Shown piece by piece: positions 23,316 to 29,539 of a stretch of DNA of 64,000 bases. Source of the DNA: Clostridia bacterium (GTDB taxonomy: Bacteria; Bacillota; Clostridia; Oscillospirales; CAG-272). Position 1 is the first letter of the stretch. Each line of letters starts with the position of its first letter. The position numbers and the translations under genes are program-made. The DNA is taken from positions 74,035-138,034 of the forward strand of contig JAFVQU010000011.1 of NCBI GenBank assembly GCA_017504625.1, given 5' to 3'. The notes under the pieces were generated by a model. The model did no database searches. It was not told the DNA's origin and saw only the letters and a list, made by a program, of their open reading frames with translations.

Positions 23316-24584
23316 ATGTCGAATTACAGTGAGCTTATCAAAAACTTTGAAAAGATAAGGGCTTACATGCGTGATTTTTACGTCTACGGCTTTAAAAAGC
23401 GTGACGATTACAGCGAAAAAAGCACAAAAAGCGCGCGATCCTACGACGACGAGCGCCGCAGAATTGAAAGCTGGCTTGGCGATCATATGAGCTTTGTGCG
23501 TACTCCCGAGGGTAAAAATGTTTTTATCTCGATCGACAGCCGCACCATAAGACATAATCCGTTTTTCAACGCTTGGAAAGCAAAGAGCTTTACCGACGGT
23601 GATATAACACTTCATTTTATTATTTTTGACATCCTTCACGAGCCTTCGATCAGCAGGACGGTAACCGAGATAATGCGCGAGATCGATGAGAAATATCTTT
23701 CGGGCTTTAATAAGCCGATGATGTTTGACGAGTCAACTATCCGTAAAAAGCTTAAGGAATATTGCGAGGCTGGAATAATCGAGTCGCAAAAGGAAGGTCG
23801 AAGGGTTTATTACCGCCGCGCAGAAAACACCGACGTGTCGGATCTTGAGGACCTTTTGCATTATTTCTCCGAGGCGGTGCCTTGCGGCGCTATCGGCTCC
23901 TTTCTGCTTGACAAGACCGAGTCTGATACCGATACGTTTACCTTCAAGCATCACTACATAACCGGCGCGATAGACAGCGGCGTTATGGCGGCGCTTTTCA
24001 CCGCTATGAGAGAAAAGCGCGCGGTCACGGTGTCAAACCTCAGCCGCCGCCGCGATCTGCCTCGCCGTAACCGAATCATACCGCTCCGATTCTTTATCAG
24101 CGTTCAGAGCGGTAGGCAGCATCTGATTGCTTATCTTCCGGAATATAATCATTTTCAATCCTATCGCGTTGATTATCTTTCTCAGGTCAAGCTTGAGGAT
24201 GTTACGCCGCGCTTTGACGAGCTGCGCTCCGAGCTTGACAGGATGCAGGGCAAGATGTGGGGTGTAAGCGTAAAACGTAACAAGTGGGGAGAGGATCGCC
24301 TTGAGCACGTTGAATTTACCGTGAAGGTAGATGACGGCGAGGACTTTATCGTCAAGCGCTTGTACAGAGAAAAGCGCGTGGGTGAGATCGAGATGATAGA
24401 CGCGCATACGTATCGTTTTACCGCGGACGTCTATGATTCAAGCGAGATGGTTCCGTGGATCAGGAGCTTCATCTGCCGAATAACCGATATGAAGTTTTCA
24501 AACAGATCACAGGAGAACAAGTTCAAGGAGGATCTTGATGCTTTGTACTCCATGTACGGCGTAAGGGAGGAGGACGAGGCATGA
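23316..24584 (+). CDS. WYL-domain protein
   Basis: 422 aa. The N-terminus (YSELIKNFEKIRAYMRDFYVYGFKKRDDY) is followed by a winged-helix-like region near residues 90-170 (FDILHEPSISRTVTEIMREID; STIRKKLKEYCEAGIIESQKEGRRVYYRR). The WYL core is near residues 225-300 (AMREKRAVTVSNLSRRRDLPRRNRIIPLRFFISVQSGRQHLIAYLPEYNHFQSYRVDYL). The gene ends in an ATGA overlap with the next WYL gene. Pairs of long WYL proteins like this are known beside DNA- or RNA-related defence genes. It is probably a ligand-sensing regulator or effector. Confidence 0.88.
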   Translation: MSNYSELIKNFEKIRAYMRDFYVYGFKKRDDYSEKSTKSARSYDDERRRIESWLGDHMSFVRTPEGKNVFISIDSRTIRHNPFFNAWKAKSFTDGDITLHFIIFDILHEPSISRTVTEIMREIDEKYLSGFNKPMMFDESTIRKKLKEYCEAGIIESQKEGRRVYYRRAENTDVSDLEDLLHYFSEAVPCGAIGSFLLDKTESDTDTFTFKHHYITGAIDSGVMAALFTAMREKRAVTVSNLSRRRDLPRRNRIIPLRFFISVQSGRQHLIAYLPEYNHFQSYRVDYLSQVKLEDVTPRFDELRSELDRMQGKMWGVSVKRNKWGEDRLEHVEFTVKVDDGEDFIVKRLYREKRVGEIEMIDAHTYRFTADVYDSSEMVPWIRSFICRITDMKFSNRSQENKFKEDLDALYSMYGVREEDEA

Positions 24585-25492
24585 TATTCAGCGAGCTTTA
24601 TTCCGCGTATTATAATACCGTGGCGGCTATTATTTCACGCATAATTGACGGAGAGCATTCCGAAAAGGAATTACAAATGATAGTTGCCGAGAGAGCGTTT
24701 GGCGAGAGCGTGCTGACAATTATCCCCTCGCTAAAAAACGAGAAATGGCAGCTTGTTCATCATGATATGACTACGTCACTTGAGCATAAGCCGACAATGC
24801 CCTTGACAACTCTGCAAAAGCAGTGGCTGAAGGCGATCTCGCTTGATCCGAGATTTAAGCTCTTTGACGTGAAATTTCCCGACCTTGAGGGCGTGGAGCC
24901 CCTCTTTACGTCCGAGGACTACCACGTATACGACAAATACAGCGACGGCGATCCCTTTGAGGATGAGGAGTATATAAGACAGTTTAAGGTGATCCTTGCG
25001 GCGATCAGACAGGGAACTCAGATAAAATTTGAGATGGTTAACCGCAACGGAAAAACCATGTATATCAGATGTCATCCGATTCGTCTTGAATATTCAGAAA
25101 AGGATGATAAGTTCAGACTTGTTACAGCCGGTTGGCGCGCGATATCAACGGTCAATCTCTCGAAGATAAGAGCCTGCGTTCATTACACGGGTCCAAGAGA
25201 GCTTGACGGTGAGGAGCGCGAGGCGATATACGACACGGTAACGGTTAGGGTGCTTGATGAGCGCAACGCGCTTGAGAGATTTATGCTCCATTTTGCTCAT
25301 TTTGAAAAGCAAGCCGAAAAGCTTGATAAAAAGAACTATCTCGTGAGAATTAAATACGATCACAATGACGAGTCCGAAATGGTAATAAGAATTCTGTCCT
25401 TTGGACCTATGGTAGAGGTCTTGGGGACGGACTCGTTCAGAAATTTGATCATACAAAAGCTAAAAAAACAAAGAAACTGCGGACTCAAATAA
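24581..25492 (+). CDS. WYL-domain protein
   Basis: 303 aa. The N-terminal half is helical (AIISRIIDGEHSEKELQMIVAERAFGES; TLQKQWLKAI). A WYL-like core lies near residues 145-215 (AAIRQGTQIKFEMVNRNGKTMYIRCHPIRLEYSEKDDKFRLVTAGW). No clear DNA-binding helix is seen at the N-terminus, unlike the regulator at 21371. Its start overlaps the previous WYL gene, so the two may form a heteromer. The stop codon lies in the loop of the terminator that follows. Confidence 0.85.
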   Translation: MIFSELYSAYYNTVAAIISRIIDGEHSEKELQMIVAERAFGESVLTIIPSLKNEKWQLVHHDMTTSLEHKPTMPLTTLQKQWLKAISLDPRFKLFDVKFPDLEGVEPLFTSEDYHVYDKYSDGDPFEDEEYIRQFKVILAAIRQGTQIKFEMVNRNGKTMYIRCHPIRLEYSEKDDKFRLVTAGWRAISTVNLSKIRACVHYTGPRELDGEEREAIYDTVTVRVLDERNALERFMLHFAHFEKQAEKLDKKNYLVRIKYDHNDESEMVIRILSFGPMVEVLGTDSFRNLIIQKLKKQRNCGLK

Positions 25493-25510
25493 GAGTTCGC
25501 AGCTTTTTTT
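25477..25510 (+). terminator. intrinsic terminator overlapping the WYL gene end
   Basis: CTGCGGACTC (25477-25486) pairs with GAGTTCGCAG (25493-25502), with one G-T pair, and runs into seven T. The loop contains the TAA stop of the preceding gene. Confidence 0.88.
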
Positions 25511-25512
25511 CC

Positions 25513-25541
25513 GTGAAAAAGAGCTTTTAAGATGGTAAAAT
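25513..25541 (+). promoter_or_regulatory. promoter of the AAA+ ATPase gene (copy 1 of a duplicated module)
   Basis: GTGAAA (25513-25518), 17-nt spacer, TGG then TAAAAT (25536-25541). The surrounding TTCGCAGCTTTTTTTCC and GGTAAAATG are repeated almost exactly at 26754-26800, in front of the RNA array. Confidence 0.7.
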
Positions 25542-25607
25542 GTAGAAAAATTGGATTGCTACGGTGATCGCGTCTGATTTTTATCAAAAAACGGAGGTGA
25601 TACATAT

Positions 25608-26744
25608 ATGAAGATTATTAAATCGGGTGATACCTACAATTTTTATGATGACAGTATAAAAATGTACGATAAGCTTCCGCCCGGAGCATATACTGTTGAG
25701 TACGATGAGAAGAGTAATTCCTGCTATCTTTGCGACCACGCAGAGATCGCTGTTACTGAAAAGCTATACGGTGTGCAGGATGAAAAAATCGAAAAGGTGC
25801 TTGACGCATTTGGAGAATTTGAGCGCAGTCTTGGAGTCTTACTCAGCGGAGACAAGGGAATTGGCAAGACGATGTTTGCAAAAAAGCTCTGTCAGAGAGC
25901 TTGCGAGGGAGGAATGCCGGTTATTCTCGTTGAGGACGATTATCCGCAGTTAGTAAGATTTCTTGAGAAAATTGATCAGGAGTGTGTCGTACTGTTTGAC
26001 GAATTTGAAAAAACATTTTATGCGTGCAAGAACGGTTATTATGACGATGATGACGAAGAATGGGAGGAAACCCGCCAGGCAGGACTTTTAGGACTTTTTG
26101 ACGGTACGTCTGGTGGCAAAAAGCTCTTCGTCGTCACCTGTAACGATCTCGAAAGACTTGATCAGTACTTGATCAACCGTCCGGGAAGATTTCATTATCA
26201 TTTCGTATTCGAATATCCGACAGAGGCGGAGATAGAGGAATATCTGACGGATAAGATCAAGGAAAAATATCGCAGTGAAATTCCAAAGGTTATATCATTT
26301 TCAAAGAGAGTGCCGCTCAATTATGATTGCCTCAGAGCAATTGTATTTGAGATCAACAGAAGGGCTAAATTTGAGGATATTATTTCCGACCTTAATATTT
26401 TAAATATTGAAAAGCTTGAATATGACGTAACACTTCACTTTGAGAACGGCAAAAGACTTCATAATAAGAGGTATGTGATCGATCTTTATGACGAAAATAA
26501 TCCGTTTGGCTGGGTTCCGTTATATAACGAGTCAGGTCATCAGATAGTAGAGGTAAAATTTAATAAATCAAAAATCACATACGACATCAATAACGACGTA
26601 ATAGCAATTATGGCATCGGGATTTAAATTGGATTTTGATGACTTCGATGAGGATGAAAGAGAGGTGGCGACATACAGAAGGCTTAAGCCTACCCGTATAA
26701 CGTTTGAAAGAAGTAAGTCGAAAAATCTTCACTATTTTGGATAA
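25608..26744 (+). CDS. AAA+ ATPase
   Basis: 378 aa. Walker A GDKGIGKT is near residues 82-89. Walker B VVLFDEFE is near 127-134. A sensor-1-like FVVTCNDLERL is near 175 and an arginine-finger-like NRPGRFHYH near 190. The N-terminal 75 residues and the C-terminal 150 residues match nothing I know, and the tail ends in a basic stretch. It lies in a separate unit between the WYL genes and the RNA array. It could remodel an RNA-protein complex of the Ro-like protein. That partnership is inferred from gene order and the shared promoter module. Confidence 0.88.
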   Translation: MKIIKSGDTYNFYDDSIKMYDKLPPGAYTVEYDEKSNSCYLCDHAEIAVTEKLYGVQDEKIEKVLDAFGEFERSLGVLLSGDKGIGKTMFAKKLCQRACEGGMPVILVEDDYPQLVRFLEKIDQECVVLFDEFEKTFYACKNGYYDDDDEEWEETRQAGLLGLFDGTSGGKKLFVVTCNDLERLDQYLINRPGRFHYHFVFEYPTEAEIEEYLTDKIKEKYRSEIPKVISFSKRVPLNYDCLRAIVFEINRRAKFEDIISDLNILNIEKLEYDVTLHFENGKRLHNKRYVIDLYDENNPFGWVPLYNESGHQIVEVKFNKSKITYDINNDVIAIMASGFKLDFDDFDEDEREVATYRRLKPTRITFERSKSKNLHYFG

Positions 26745-26770
26745 AAGACTGTTTTCGCAGCTTTTTTTCC

Positions 26771-26799
26771 GTGAAAAATGCGGAAAAAGGTGGTAAAAT
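26771..26799 (+). promoter_or_regulatory. promoter of the structured-RNA array (copy 2 of the module)
   Basis: GTGAAA (26771-26776), 17-nt spacer, TGG then TAAAAT (26794-26799). The predicted start, about 26806-26809, coincides with the first base of RNA unit 1 (AAAGGCGC). The upstream TTCGCAGCTTTTTTTCC repeats the 3' half of the terminator at 25493 without its left arm, so this looks like a copied DNA segment. Confidence 0.72.
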
Positions 26800-26809
26800 G
26801 AGGTCATGA

Positions 26810-26905
26810 AAGGCGCAGACAGCAAGAAGTTTACGATAGACATCGGAGTTAGATTCCGCAAGTCGTCGGGTTCATAGCCCGGAGGTTAGTAAAAAAATGC
26901 GCCTT
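26810..26905 (+). ncRNA. Y-RNA-like unit 1 with tRNA-like arms
   Basis: The closing stem AAGGCGCA pairs perfectly with TGCGCCTT (26898-26905). The box GACAGCAA follows the 5' arm. Inside are three arms in tRNA order. The first is D-like, GTTT/AGAC at 26829-26841. The second is a 7-nt anticodon-type loop GTTAGAT with U at the second place between CGGA and TCCG (26844-26858). The third is T-like, TCGGG/CCCGG with loop TTCATAG (26866-26882). The universal A58 is replaced, so it is a mimic, not a working tRNA. Confidence 0.8.
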
Positions 26906-26910
26906 GAGTC

Positions 26911-27000
26911 ATTCTTGTTGCAATCGAAGCGAATGGGAATTAGAGTGTTAGGCATTGTGACCTTTCTTGACAATTTGATTTGTGTCGTTGCAACAAGAAT
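26911..27000 (+). ncRNA. structured RNA with 13-bp closing stem (no ACAGCAA box)
   Basis: ATTCTTGTTGCAA (26911-26923) pairs perfectly with TTGCAACAAGAAT (26988-27000). Inside, ATTGT and ACAAT form a second hairpin. It fills the space between units 1 and 2 and lacks their common motif. It may be a different RNA class of the same precursor. Confidence 0.6.
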
Positions 27001-27001
27001 A

Positions 27002-27108
27002 AAGATGCCGACAGCAATATTTACATATCCATTTCTCCCATAGGGAGAGCTGCCCGTTAAGCAGAAGACGAGCGGAGTGAAAGGCCCGCATGGTGTAAAC
27101 GGCATCTT
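27002..27108 (+). ncRNA. Y-RNA-like unit 2 with tRNA-like arms
   Basis: The stem AAGATGCC pairs with GGCATCTT (27101-27108), and the box reads GACAGCAA. Arms are TCTCCC/GGGAGA (27034-27048), then CTGC/GCAG with a 7-nt loop CCGTTAA (27050-27064), then GCGG/CCGC (27072-27089). The last arm shares GCGGAGTGAAA with unit 6. The preceding and following bases keep the AAAG...CTTG frame. Confidence 0.78.
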
Positions 27109-27116
27109 GTAATATA

Positions 27117-27199
27117 AAGGCGCGTACTGCAATTCAAAGGTCGGCAAAAGTCTTCTAAGCTTTATAGCCATGCGCATTTGCGCACATATACCGCGCCTT
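27117..27199 (+). ncRNA. Y-RNA-like unit 3
   Basis: The stem AAGGCGCG pairs with CGCGCCTT (27192-27199). The box is diverged, TACTGCAA. A small hairpin TGCGCATTTGCGCA lies near 27170-27183. A tRNA-like set of arms is not evident. Confidence 0.7.
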
Positions 27200-27236
27200 G
27201 CTTACGAGTATAAGCGCGTTCGCGATATACTATATA

Positions 27237-27354
27237 AAGATACGAACAGCAAACAAAAGCCATGACATTTTTGAAAAATGATATAAGCGAAGGCGAGGGT
27301 TCCTGTCTTGAAAACAGGCCAACCTTAGCCGAGGAACTTAAAAAATCGTATCTT
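27237..27354 (+). ncRNA. Y-RNA-like unit 4 with anticodon-like arm
   Basis: The stem AAGATACG pairs with CGTATCTT (27347-27354), and the box reads AACAGCAA. CCTGT/ACAGG with loop CTTGAAA (27302-27318) is an exact anticodon-arm shape, with anticodon position UGA. It sits on a longer stem formed by GGCGAGGGTT and AACCTTAGCC. Another hairpin (CATTTT/AAAATG) lies near 27265-27280. At 118 nt it is the longest unit. Confidence 0.78.
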
Positions 27355-27359
27355 GAAAA

Positions 27360-27511
27360 TACACCGTTATAATTTTTAGACGAGGGTGCTGAACATTCAC
27401 TGACGGTGTATGACACCGTTATATTCCCCAGCCTCGCTTGCTGGGCAATCACTGGCGGTGTAACACCGCTATATTATCCCGTCTTGCTAACGGGACTATC
27501 ACTGGCGGTGT
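27360..27511 (+). repeat. three tandem 50-nt hairpins with ACACCG/CGGTGT stems
   Basis: Copies at 27360-27410, 27413-27461 and 27463-27511. Each begins (T)ACACCGYTATA and ends TCACTGRCGGTGT(A), so the ends pair. The inside differs: copies 2 and 3 have inner stems CCCAG/CTGGG and TCCCGT/ACGGGA with unrelated sequences. The period is 50-52 nt. They separate units 4 and 5 and form a second RNA family within the array. Confidence 0.75.
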
Positions 27512-27518
27512 ATTTCTA

Positions 27519-27598
27519 AAGACGCATACAGCAAACGGACTTGTCAGGTAAGTTCTGACCCGCGCCGCATGGCTGCGAAATTCATGAAAATGCGTCTT
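27519..27598 (+). ncRNA. Y-RNA-like unit 5 with anticodon-like arm
   Basis: The stem AAGACGCA pairs with TGCGTCTT (27591-27598), and the box reads TACAGCAA. GTCAG/CTGAC with a 7-nt loop GTAAGTT (27543-27559) is anticodon-arm-like, with U at the second loop place. It is followed by a GCC/GGC hairpin. Confidence 0.76.
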
Positions 27599-27600
27599 GA

Positions 27601-27651
27601 GCATCGCAGATATGCAGACGAATGTTGCCGTTGTTAGCATATCTGCGGTGC
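27601..27651 (+). ncRNA. structured RNA hairpin between units 5 and 6
   Basis: GCATCGCAGATATGC (27601-27615) pairs with GCATATCTGCGGTGC (27637-27651) over 15 positions with one G-T pair, around a 21-nt loop. It lacks the ACAGCAA box. Confidence 0.55.
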
Positions 27652-27670
27652 AACCAAATAATTTGTCATA

Positions 27671-27780
27671 AAGATGCACACAAACAGCAATAAAACCTGC
27701 TCTTTAGTCCCTTGAGGGACGCTTGCTTTCGGGGCAAGAGGCGCGGAGTGAAATTCTCCGTATGAGCTATGATGCATCTT
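27671..27780 (+). ncRNA. Y-RNA-like unit 6, cloverleaf-like tRNA mimic
   Basis: The stem AAGATGCA pairs with TGCATCTT (27773-27780), and the box AACAGCAA comes after four extra bases. Three arms stand in tRNA order: GTCCC/GGGAC (27707-27720); CTTGC/GCAAG with 7-nt loop TTTCGGG, anticodon position UCG (27722-27738); and CGGAG/CTCCG with 7-nt loop TGAAATT (27744-27760). The T-loop lacks TTC, so it would not be a normal tRNA. Confidence 0.82.
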
Positions 27781-27787
27781 GTTATAA

Positions 27788-27864
27788 AAGGCGCAGACAG
27801 CAATGTAATAAGCTGACGAACGGGGAGGAGCAATCCGACACTGATCGATGAAAAAATGCGCCTT
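27788..27864 (+). ncRNA. Y-RNA-like unit 7 (short)
   Basis: The stem AAGGCGCA pairs with TGCGCCTT (27857-27864), the same sequence as in unit 1, and the box reads GACAGCAA. At 77 nt it is the shortest. The inside shows no clear cloverleaf. Confidence 0.74.
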
Positions 27865-27870
27865 GTTATA

Positions 27871-27939
27871 TGGAGGGCAGTTTCTGCGAGAATGCAAGAG
27901 TAGATCTCTTGAGGGGAGGTTCACGGCCTCCGCCCTCCA
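27871..27939 (+). ncRNA. tRNA-shaped element between units 7 and 8
   Basis: TGGAGGGC (27871-27878) pairs with GCCCTCCA (27932-27939) like an acceptor stem. CAAGA/TCTTG with loop GTAGATC (27895-27911) is anticodon-arm-like (AGA). GGAGG/CCTCC with loop TTCACGG (27915-27931) abuts the acceptor exactly as a T-arm does. The D-arm is only TTCT/AGAA, there is no D-loop GG, and A58 is C. It is a degenerate tRNA or a mimic. Confidence 0.68.
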
Positions 27940-27945
27940 CACAAA

Positions 27946-28042
27946 AAGGCACCAACAGCAATTGTTGAATAGCTTAGTTGGTTAAAGCAGAGGACTGAAA
28001 ATCCTCGTACGCGAGTTCGACTCTTGCATCAAACGGTGCCTT
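27946..28042 (+). ncRNA. Y-RNA-like unit 8 carrying a tRNA-Phe-like module
   Basis: The stem AAGGCACC pairs with GGTGCCTT (28035-28042), and the box reads AACAGCAA. Inside is an almost complete tRNA body: D-arm GCTT/AAGC (27972-27988), anticodon arm GAGGA/TCCTC with loop CTGAAAA, anticodon GAA (27990-28006), and T-arm GCGAG/CTTGC with TTCGACT (28011-28027). The acceptor (TGTTGAA at 27963 with ATCAAAC at 28028) forms only four pairs. The RNA ends in the Y-type outer stem instead. A tRNA finder could misreport this as tRNA-Phe. Confidence 0.85.
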
Positions 28043-28081
28043 GTATTAAAGAAAAATTTATCACGAAAAGGAGTGAGCTTA

Positions 28082-29539
28082 ATGTTAGAATATTTGAAGA
28101 ATGAAGCAAACAAGACTTATACCGAAAACGGTGCGGCAACCTATGCCACCACGAATTCAGATTGTCTTGATCTCTTTGCAACTATCGGCGCTTTGCGCAG
28201 AGAAAGCGAGAGCGAGATAATTACACGTTTTATCCGCGCATACAGCGAAAACAGAGATATAGCAATGAAGCTCCTCTTTTTCGCAAGAGATATCCGCGGC
28301 GGACTTGGCGAGCGCCGTGTTTTCAAGGTAATTCTCGGCTGGCTCGCGGAAAATGAGCCTGCAACTCTTCGCAAGAATATTGAATTCGTTGCAGAATACG
28401 GTCGCTTTGACGATCTTCTCGTGCTTATGAATACCCCCTGCGAGAAGGATATGCTTGAGGTTTTACATAAGCAGTTTTTGAGTGACGTAAAGGCACTCAA
28501 GGAGGGAGGCGAGGTCTCGCTTCTCGCAAAGTGGTTGCCCTCGGTAAATGCGTCGAACAAGGAAACGGTTTTGTGTGCGAAAAGAATTGCAAAATACTTT
28601 GGCATGAACGACGCAAGCTATCGCAAGGCTCTCGTTGCTCTCCGCGCGCATATTCGCATCATCGAAAACAATTTGCGCGAGAAGGATTATACCTTTGACT
28701 ACTCAAAGCAGCCCTCAAAGGCTATGTATAAATACCGCAAGGCGTTTATCCGCAACGACGGAGAGAGATACGGCGAGTTTATAAGTAAAGTGTCAAGCGG
28801 AGAGGTAAATCTTAATGCAAAAACACTGATGCCCTACGAAATAATTACCCCCTTTTTCAACGGTGGTGTCAGTGACGAGGAAAGAGCCGCGATCAATGCT
28901 ACCTGGCTTTCTCAGGAGGACTTCGGTAACAACGAAAATGCGATTGCTGTAATAGATGGCTCGGGATCAATGTACGGCTGGGGAAATCCCAAGCCCATTA
29001 CGGTTGCCCTCTCGCTCGGTATCTATTTTGCCGAGAGGAATACGGGTGCGTTCAAAAATCACTTTATCACCTTCTCAACCAACCCTAAGCTTGTTGAGAT
29101 AAAGGGTGAGGATATTCTTGATAAGGCTCGTTACTGCAGTAGCTTTAACGAGATCGCTAATACCAATATCCAAAAGGTGTTTGAGCTGATTCTTAATACG
29201 GCAAAGAAAAATCACGTGCCTCAGGATGAGCTTCCTCAAAAGATCTATATCATCTCGGATATGGAATTTGACTATTGCACAAACGATGCATCCTTGACCA
29301 ATTTTGAGTATGCGAAGAAGCTCTTTGAGAACGCAGGCTACAAATTACCCGACATCGTTTTCTGGAACGTGGCGAGTCGCAACCGTCAACAGCCCGTCAC
29401 CAAGAACGAGCAGGGAGTAGCTCTCGTTTCGGGATTTACGCCCAGACTCTTTTCAATGGTAGCGGGTGGCAAACTGAATCCTTACGCATTTATGCTTGAG
29501 GTGGTAGAGAGCGAGAGATACGCTAAAATTGTAGCATAA
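28082..29539 (+). CDS. Ro60-like RNA-binding protein (TROVE/DUF2828 type with vWA domain)
   Basis: 485 aa from ATG 28082, 8 nt after AAGGAG; a GTG at 28073 is inside that ribosome site. The N-terminal about 280 residues are helical repeats with LLFFARDIRGGLGERRVFKVIL and PSKAMYKYRKAF, blocks of the DUF2828/TROVE group. A vWA domain follows, with MIDAS DGSGS near residue 295 and ISDMEFDYC later. Ro-type proteins form rings that bind Y RNAs and damaged or misfolded RNAs. The gene starts 40 nt after RNA unit 8, the arrangement expected for a Ro protein and its Y RNAs. Confidence 0.87.
   Translation: MLEYLKNEANKTYTENGAATYATTNSDCLDLFATIGALRRESESEIITRFIRAYSENRDIAMKLLFFARDIRGGLGERRVFKVILGWLAENEPATLRKNIEFVAEYGRFDDLLVLMNTPCEKDMLEVLHKQFLSDVKALKEGGEVSLLAKWLPSVNASNKETVLCAKRIAKYFGMNDASYRKALVALRAHIRIIENNLREKDYTFDYSKQPSKAMYKYRKAFIRNDGERYGEFISKVSSGEVNLNAKTLMPYEIITPFFNGGVSDEERAAINATWLSQEDFGNNENAIAVIDGSGSMYGWGNPKPITVALSLGIYFAERNTGAFKNHFITFSTNPKLVEIKGEDILDKARYCSSFNEIANTNIQKVFELILNTAKKNHVPQDELPQKIYIISDMEFDYCTNDASLTNFEYAKKLFENAGYKLPDIVFWNVASRNRQQPVTKNEQGVALVSGFTPRLFSMVAGGKLNPYAFMLEVVESERYAKIVA

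Follow-up and report, generated by a model that had tools for sequence, protein, structure and literature searches.

The window analysed here is a stretch of 64,000 nucleotides from a gut bacterium of the Clostridia (Oscillospirales, CAG-272; contig JAFVQU010000011.1, positions 74,035 to 138,034), and the subject of this study is an array of small Y-RNA-like units that lies in it upstream of a gene for a Ro-like protein. Read from the window sequence and counted from AAAG to CTTG, eight units occupy positions 26809-28043 of the forward strand, preceded by two genes for WYL-type regulators and an AAA ATPase gene (Table 1). All units follow one plan, in which AAAG, a variable stem, an ACAGCAA box and a variable insert are followed by the exact complement of the stem and CTTG. 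An initial annotation made from the letters alone had described eight units at this place, and every stem that it listed is correct and has its exact 3' complement with CTTG; the ACAGCAA box, which it assigned to all units, is exact in seven of the eight, as unit 3 reads ACTGCAA. In unit 6 a spacer of 5 nt separates the stem from the box.

Table 1. Features of the array locus, with positions in the window (z, folding compared with shuffled sequences).
Feature	Position	Strand	Remarks
WYL-domain regulator A	23316..24584	+	Pfam WYL; homologue near the Ro-like gene in 37/70 loci
Second WYL-like regulator B	24581..25492	+	PADLOC WYL model, E 7.5e-11; homologue in 33/70 loci
Operator/promoter-like copy 1	25498..25550	+	CGCAGCTTTTTTTCCGTGA, then TGGTAAAAT (-10-like)
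AAA ATPase gene	25608..26744	+	Pfam AAA; operator upstream; cluster in 2/70 loci; homologue at the equivalent place in L010
Operator/promoter-like copy 2	26750..26808	+	Ends directly before AAAG of unit 1
Unit 1	26809..26906	+	Y-like stem and box; anticodon arm TCGGG-TTCATAG-CCCGG, like the initiator tRNA-Met of the same genome
Hairpin between units 1 and 2	26907..27000	+	Perfect 13-nt arms; z -3.9
Unit 2	27001..27109	+	Longer class; UGAAA T-loop-like hairpin; arm CTGC-CCGTTAA-GCAG by eye only, no mimic recognised by script
Unit 3	27116..27200	+	Box ACTGCAA; arm AAAGT-CTTCTAA-GCTTT; natural Arg(TCT) loop
Unit 4	27236..27355	+	Arm CCTGT-CTTGAAA-ACAGG; natural Ser(TGA) loop
Three tandem hairpins	27358..27512	+	About 50 nt each; 7-nt loops in two; z -3.4 to -5.0
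Unit 5	27518..27599	+	Copy of 23S rRNA (presumably helix 71), 31/34 aligned positions
Long hairpin between units 5 and 6	27601..27651	+	z -6.5
Unit 6	27670..27781	+	Longer class; TCG arm CTTGC-TTTCGGG-GCAAG; T33; loop outside the 62 natural loops
Unit 7	27787..27865	+	Short unit; best rRNA score 24, no higher than controls; no mimic recognised
Free-standing tRNA-like element	27868..27944	+	Acceptor-like stem GGAGGGC/GCCCTCC; z -3.5; full tRNA-Phe at the equivalent place in L010
Unit 8	27945..28043	+	Y-like stem around a near-complete tRNA, Phe(GAA) anticodon arm; no CCA end
Ro-like protein, DUF2828 + DUF7788	28082..29539	+	485 aa; Pfam; vWA-like, DGSGSM

The array is real and lies far beyond chance. 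Homologous loci were taken from seven of 116 relatives (the window's own genome excluded), from a collection of 84,980 species, each represented by a single genome (68 loci) and from one viral contig; with the window included and the duplicates L001 and L002 left out, 76 loci were counted. A relaxed scan of the 2 kb upstream of the homologous gene revealed 177 units (three of them longer than 150 nt and possibly false pairings) in 66 of the 76 loci, compared with three units in the reverse complement, one in the reversed sequence and zero to four in each of ten shuffles, and this distribution bears out the earlier assignment of the bank to the gene at 28082. Up to 1.5 kb upstream, the same loci contain 198 ACAGCAA boxes, of which 175 have an exact stem of at least 7 bp and 138 of these also end in CTTG; 20 dinucleotide shuffles, based on a version of the scan that counted 190, 167 and 130, yielded on average 8.6 boxes, 0.7 stems and no unit ending in CTTG. 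The 1.5 kb downstream of the gene hold two such units on its own strand (L025 and L028) and none on the opposite strand. Furthermore, a search of 117 genomes with the pattern AAAGRYRYNNACAGCAA gave 26 matches in the eight genomes bearing the gene, every one of them at most 1.7 kb upstream of it, and 14 scattered matches in 11 of the 109 genomes without the gene, which is about equal to the reversed-pattern control (12 over all 117 genomes).

The ends of the units also covary. In a test that does not select for pairing, 127 of 163 sites of the type AAAG-N4-N1..3-ACAGCAA are followed by their own 3' partner with CTTG, compared with 801 of 23374 cross tests (3.4%) in which the partner of a foreign unit is present. 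Two-sided changes that keep the pair are found in eight of the 16 predicted pairs in an alignment of 25 tRNA-like units (A2) and in 15 of the 23 in an alignment of 16 units of the longer class (A4), so that compensatory change speaks for a real RNA helix, as had been proposed from the window alone. Compared with shuffled sequences, folding is more stable in six of the window's eight units (z -2.8 or lower), with no excess for units 3 and 5 (z -1.5 and -1.9, respectively). CRISPR-like or mobile repeats were rejected as an explanation, because the repetition is limited to the unit ends and these ends covary. On sequence grounds we consider the anatomy of the array well supported, and its function is what we infer from here on.

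In ten of the 76 loci no unit was called by script within 2 kb upstream. The array of L009 is shifted upstream, L050, L067 and L073 have little or no upstream DNA, variant boxes are visible by eye in L052, L070 and L076, the situation in L060 and L072 is unclear, and the viral contig L077 has no unit within 2 kb. In L070, an Erysipelotrichaceae locus with a protein of 43% identity, about five units with variant boxes can be seen by eye upstream of the gene, one of which resembles an Asp(GTC) arm.

The protein encoded downstream of the array had been labelled Ro60-like, a label that fits mainly its vWA half and that does not extend to membership of TROVE/Ro60 by Pfam. Every one of the 40 aligned members contains DUF2828 and DUF7788, and the DxSxS motif does not vary in alignment A1. 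VWA_2 matched 28 of these proteins at E up to 1, with 0.0002 as the best value and 0.023 for the window protein, which falls under the Pfam cut-off. The C-terminal vWA domain typical of Ro60 and Rsr is present according to DUF7788 (40/40), the DxSxS motif and the half-profile comparison with TROVE. No TROVE domain (PF05731) was found in the window protein, among the 21 families listed for the 40 members at E up to 1 or anywhere in the window's own genome. A TROVE profile built from seven TROVE proteins of the same phylum, which recognises Ro60 (1YVP, 3e-32) and Rsr (2NVO, 9e-32), matched the Ro-like family over 383 columns with E 4.2e-6; the vWA half alone gave E 5.7e-6 and the N-terminal half, where the helical-repeat ring of Ro60 would be sought, a weak E 0.019, with five column-shuffled controls at 0.11-0.73. 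As the vWA half carries the match and the N-terminal half is weak, the DUF2828-DUF7788 protein is probably a distant, Ro60-like relative by layout, outside Pfam TROVE. A profile search of the PDB with the Ro-like family gave TubR as sole match (E 0.58), which we attribute to chance, and NCBIfam and PADLOC have no family for the protein at E 0.001.

As far as sequence similarity goes, many of the inserts copy functional sites of the translation machinery, which makes the array a bank of mimics. For the tRNA part, a set of 62 natural anticodon loops was compiled from 99 tRNAs, 40 of the window's own genome and 59 located outside the arrays in 11 fetched loci. An exact natural 7-nt loop closed by at least 4 bp is present in 37 of the 138 units, compared with a mean of 0.5 (maximum 4) in 200 shuffles and two in the reverse complement. 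Hairpins with a 7-nt loop, T33 and a purine at position 37 occur in 75 of the 138 units, including a few that are not anticodon arms (the helix 71 part of unit 5, for instance), compared with a mean of 11.9 (maximum 22) in 100 shuffles. The loops are diverse, with GAA (Phe) in 12 cases, CAT (Met) in seven, TCT (Arg) in five and others; one unit of L054 combines a Lys(TTT) arm with an exact initiator-Met loop, and the loop of window unit 1 differs from that of the host initiator tRNA-Met at two positions. A natural arm without a T arm was found in 34 of the 177 units. A raw tally of 7-nt hairpins was replaced by the natural-loop test, as it was contaminated by T loops and the reverse strand was also rich in them.

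Within the tRNA-like class (A2), column identity amounts to 0.93 in the handle, 0.77 in the D arm, 0.84 in the T arm and 0.55 in the anticodon arm, the last value being somewhat lowered by misalignment. A parser of the A2 anticodon arms paired several rows wrongly, and no counts were taken from it. When arms were assigned by simple patterns, 25 of the 177 bacterial units showed the order D..T and one the order T..D; in this D-anticodon-T order the anticodon should therefore face outward. The initial annotation had referred to the tRNA-like module of bacterial Y RNAs, and such a module is indeed present in the inserts, only not of the permuted YrlA kind: the YrlA-type arrangement of D, T and acceptor arms was seen in four phage or plasmid units. 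No cloverleaf with mature ends was found in the window either, where only unit 8 reaches the Rfam tRNA model (46.3 bits; also detected by ARAGORN), without CCA and enclosed in its Y-like stem. The remaining Rfam matches in the array are weak (E 2-4), belong to unrelated families and were rejected. At gathering thresholds Rfam found tRNA alone and no bacterial Y RNA family here. Since the outcome was no different at seven loci with TROVE genes and at eight from phages or plasmids, its silence on the array is no evidence against Y RNA. In most members of the longer class A4 (window 27670-27781; L013, L016, L023, L029, L062) the T-loop reads UGAAA instead of TTCRA, and an anticodon-like loop with G38 as its last base is seen in six of the 16 A4 members and in one of the 99 natural loops.

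A second type of insert resembles rRNA. As no rRNA genes are seen in the assembly to which the window belongs, the 23S and 16S rRNA of the L061 genome (G509) served as reference. At 26 bits or more, the arrays gave 13 sense matches, none in antisense and five with the reversed sequence (both strands); at 34 bits or more, six, none and none, respectively. Six of the 13 sense matches fall at 23S positions 1871-1911, which we take to be helices 70-71 (window unit 5, L012, L013, L015, L022 and L032; helix 71 is presumably the proper name of the site copied by unit 5), four at 884-944 (two in L008, one each in L013 and L032) and three elsewhere. Below the threshold, positions 884-944 are also matched in L014 and L015 (25.6 bits) and, by pattern, in L029. 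The helix 71 copy lies within a called unit in the window, L012 and L022. A helix 71 pattern found six sites in the 2 kb upstream on the plus strand, five of them clear and one, in L042, a poor and doubtful copy, compared with none on the minus strand and none in the reversed sequence; one of the six lies in L070 with its distant protein. Copies of the 16S decoding site were not found at threshold in the arrays. Resemblances at L066 -1868 (H69), L012 -100 (23S 900-945) and L011 -392 (16S decoding region) were noticed by eye only and are not claimed. That the inserts differ in kind, anticodon arms on the one hand and 23S hairpins on the other, had escaped the initial annotation, as had the operon described further below.

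The handle is not restricted to clostridia, where the initial annotation had proposed to look for it and where it was indeed found, and it also occurs in phages of many hosts. Relatives of the Ro-like protein are present in 682 of 50,697 phage records and four of 72,556 plasmids; the phage DUF2828 'Ro-like RNA binding protein' is PHROG 850, and several mycobacteriophages carry that name in their annotation. We examined 13 phage or plasmid records, 11 in a box scan and L127 and L132 (60-63% identical) separately. All 29 copies of ACAGCAA found within 1.5 kb in the 11 scanned loci lie on the strand of the gene, and nine of these loci have the box together with a stem. In L132 four units are located 1.4-1.8 kb upstream, and the 1.9 kb of sequence upstream of the gene in L127 contain no box. 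The phage system thus has a homologous protein and the same box-and-stem handle, whereas its units are few and either simple or permuted tRNA-like, and several phages carry ordinary tRNA genes alongside: L128-L131 adjoin 9-17 tRNA genes, in L129 together with a tRNA-splicing ligase, and no tRNA is annotated in the stretches examined of L133, L134, L135 and L138. All four phage or plasmid units with both arms have the order T..D (L130 -1472, L131 -888, L136 +2278 and L139 -562, counted from the gene start). In these permuted units the same handle encloses T arm, acceptor and D arm, so that D, T and acceptor face outward. Judged by arm order, the RNAs of the bacterial arrays are turned round relative to the phage and plasmid units and would display the anticodon.

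Clustering of 937 open reading frames from 70 loci gave an idea of the genes that accompany the array. Apart from the two WYL regulators, the RtcB family was found in 25 of the 70 loci and RlaP in seven, and Pfam confirmed five RtcB, three RlaP and three WYL-A members of these clusters; for WYL-B, Pfam gave no match in the window copy or in the L009 homologue. Since two WYL regulators, RtcB and RlaP are the neighbours across loci, we consider the surrounding genes a probable RNA-repair operon. Furthermore, the 19-bp element CGCAGCTTTTTTTCCGTGA occurs exactly twice in the window (0.02 expected), once before the AAA gene and once before the array, and the copy before the array is conserved in L003, L009, L010, L011 and L054. 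Due to this exactly repeated and conserved operator, a regulated promoter of its own is probable for the array, with a start near AAAG of unit 1. The AAA ATPase gene, which shares the operator and the -10-like sequence, may belong to the same regulon.

We tentatively assume, with slightly less than even confidence, that the inserts act as baits or decoys towards RNases with tRNA or rRNA as their target, presented in a Ro-like ribonucleoprotein with interchangeable RNA subunits. The units would be transcribed as small RNAs, and their constant handle, an 8-bp terminal stem with the ACAGCAA box, would be bound by the DUF2828-vWA protein. In many units the variable insert would display a 23S rRNA hairpin or an anticodon arm, the latter either by itself or as part of an almost complete tRNA. 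Anticodon nucleases and toxins that cut rRNA, whether they come from rivals, from phages or from the cell itself, would then bind or cut this mimic and spare the real tRNA or rRNA. For YrlA, Hughes et al. (2020, PMC7790460) propose its tRNA-like domain as a possible competitive inhibitor of an anticodon nuclease. The Ro-like particle, together with RtcB and RlaP where present, could then keep or repair the cut RNA, and the WYL regulators could turn the operon on via the shared operator. It is a further and, in our opinion, unlikely step that the array serves as a heritable, fast-changing target repertoire, a kind of immune-like memory against RNases, in which new mimics are captured behind a fixed Ro-binding handle as new toxins are encountered, and decoys are repaired and reused.

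Several observations weigh against decoys. No mimic was recognised in 69 of the 177 units, and 21 more contain a T arm alone. Among the six strong copies of helix 71, those in L013, L015 and L032 lie between called units and not within them, the rRNA signal of single units is weaker (10 of 177 at 26 or more in sense, none in antisense and four reversed), and all rRNA comparisons refer to one genome only. The sarcin-ricin loop is a classic toxin target, and none of the arrays matched it at threshold in this 23S sequence. Neither RtcB nor RlaP was found in the window or elsewhere in its own genome; their repair is therefore not needed for the array to persist. YrlA itself was reported by Hughes et al. 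(2020, PMC7790460) as not cut by the nuclease that they studied.

Instead of acting as a decoy, each insert could couple the Ro-like ring to a partner of its own that binds tRNA or rRNA, for example a nuclease, a modification enzyme or a ligase, and thereby set the work of the particle. We regard such an adaptor as possible, though on the whole rather unlikely: YrlA is described as tethering Rsr to PNPase and as a substrate of tRNA-modifying enzymes (PMC8394870), and 25 units keep both D and T arms, but variation and outward display concern the anticodon arm and not the elbow or acceptor, and a T arm of the TTCRA type is found in only 41 of the 177 units. The two WYL regulators and the operator common to the array and the AAA gene might also point to a sacrificial sensor, in which the RNA end of a cut mimic is sensed by a WYL regulator or the Ro-like protein and induces the operon, with titration as a minor effect. 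The Salmonella RNA repair operon, which is regulated by damaged tRNAs (PMC7790460), would be in line with this. However, one RNA should be enough for sensing, which leaves up to eight units and the diversity of loops unexplained, and we think it improbable that this is the principal role.

That RtcB and RlaP are neighbours would also suit a repair chaperone, with the mimic holding or templating damaged pieces of tRNA or rRNA for correct joining by RtcB. The mimics are sense copies and not complements, as no antisense match reaches 26 bits, and the own genome lacks RtcB, which makes this role highly improbable. Finally, the inserts could be relics, fragments of tRNA and rRNA caught between Y-like handles and drifting without function, since tRNA arms are damaged or absent in many units. 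Against this very unlikely origin stand the exact natural loops, which are about 70 times as frequent in hairpins as in shuffles, the loops kept without the rest of the tRNA, and the recurrence of the same 23S site across loci as far as L070. Each mimic insert names a likely target, so that individual units can be tried against individual nucleases.

Chen et al. (2014) reportedly described Y RNAs close to Ro60 in more than 250 species of bacteria and phages, each species having one or more that resemble tRNA. Y RNAs with tRNA-like parts are already known, whereas the anticodon-presenting bank of several identities, the rRNA copies and the ACAGCAA handle appear to be new; in agreement with the initial annotation, which knew of no array of this size, none of this kind was described in the literature searched, with several key papers of the field outside that search. 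The array resembles bacterial Ro60 (Rsr) with YrlA and YrlB in its end-joining stem, in small RNAs beside a Ro-like vWA protein, in tRNA-like inserts and, at some of the loci, in the association with RtcB. It differs in having DUF2828 and DUF7788 instead of Pfam TROVE, many units per locus, the ACAGCAA box and the 23S copies, and it displays the anticodon arm, whereas D, T and acceptor arms are reported for YrlA (PMC8394870). Like the rsr-yrlBA-rtcBA operon of Salmonella, for which a damage-responsive regulator is reported (PMC7790460), it combines a Ro-like protein, Y RNAs and, in 25 of the 70 loci by clustering, RtcB; unlike that operon, it has WYL regulators, and a whole bank of units takes the place of the two Y RNAs (RtcR/CARF and RtcA were outside the search). 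An array with the anticodon loops of many tRNAs and specific 23S hairpins behind one handle makes the vague idea of tRNA mimicry testable and bears on the question why bacteria and phages keep Ro proteins and tRNA-mimicking Y RNAs beside RNA-repair enzymes. With it, the large DUF2828 family also comes under the Y-RNA idea, and AAAG-stem-ACAGCAA ... stem-CTTG can serve as a signature for searches.

Genes for tRNA or tRNA-like RNA are found at some of the loci as well. Full tRNA-Phe genes with CCA lie inside the arrays of L008 (1303-1378) and L010 (7796-7871), and the tRNA-like genes of L009, L054, L069 and L016 have anticodons, AAA and AAT among them, that are rarely used by bacteria. Ordinary tRNA gene clusters, with up to 20 genes within the fetched locus, are located near the Ro-like gene in L028, L066, L039, L051, L057 and L058.

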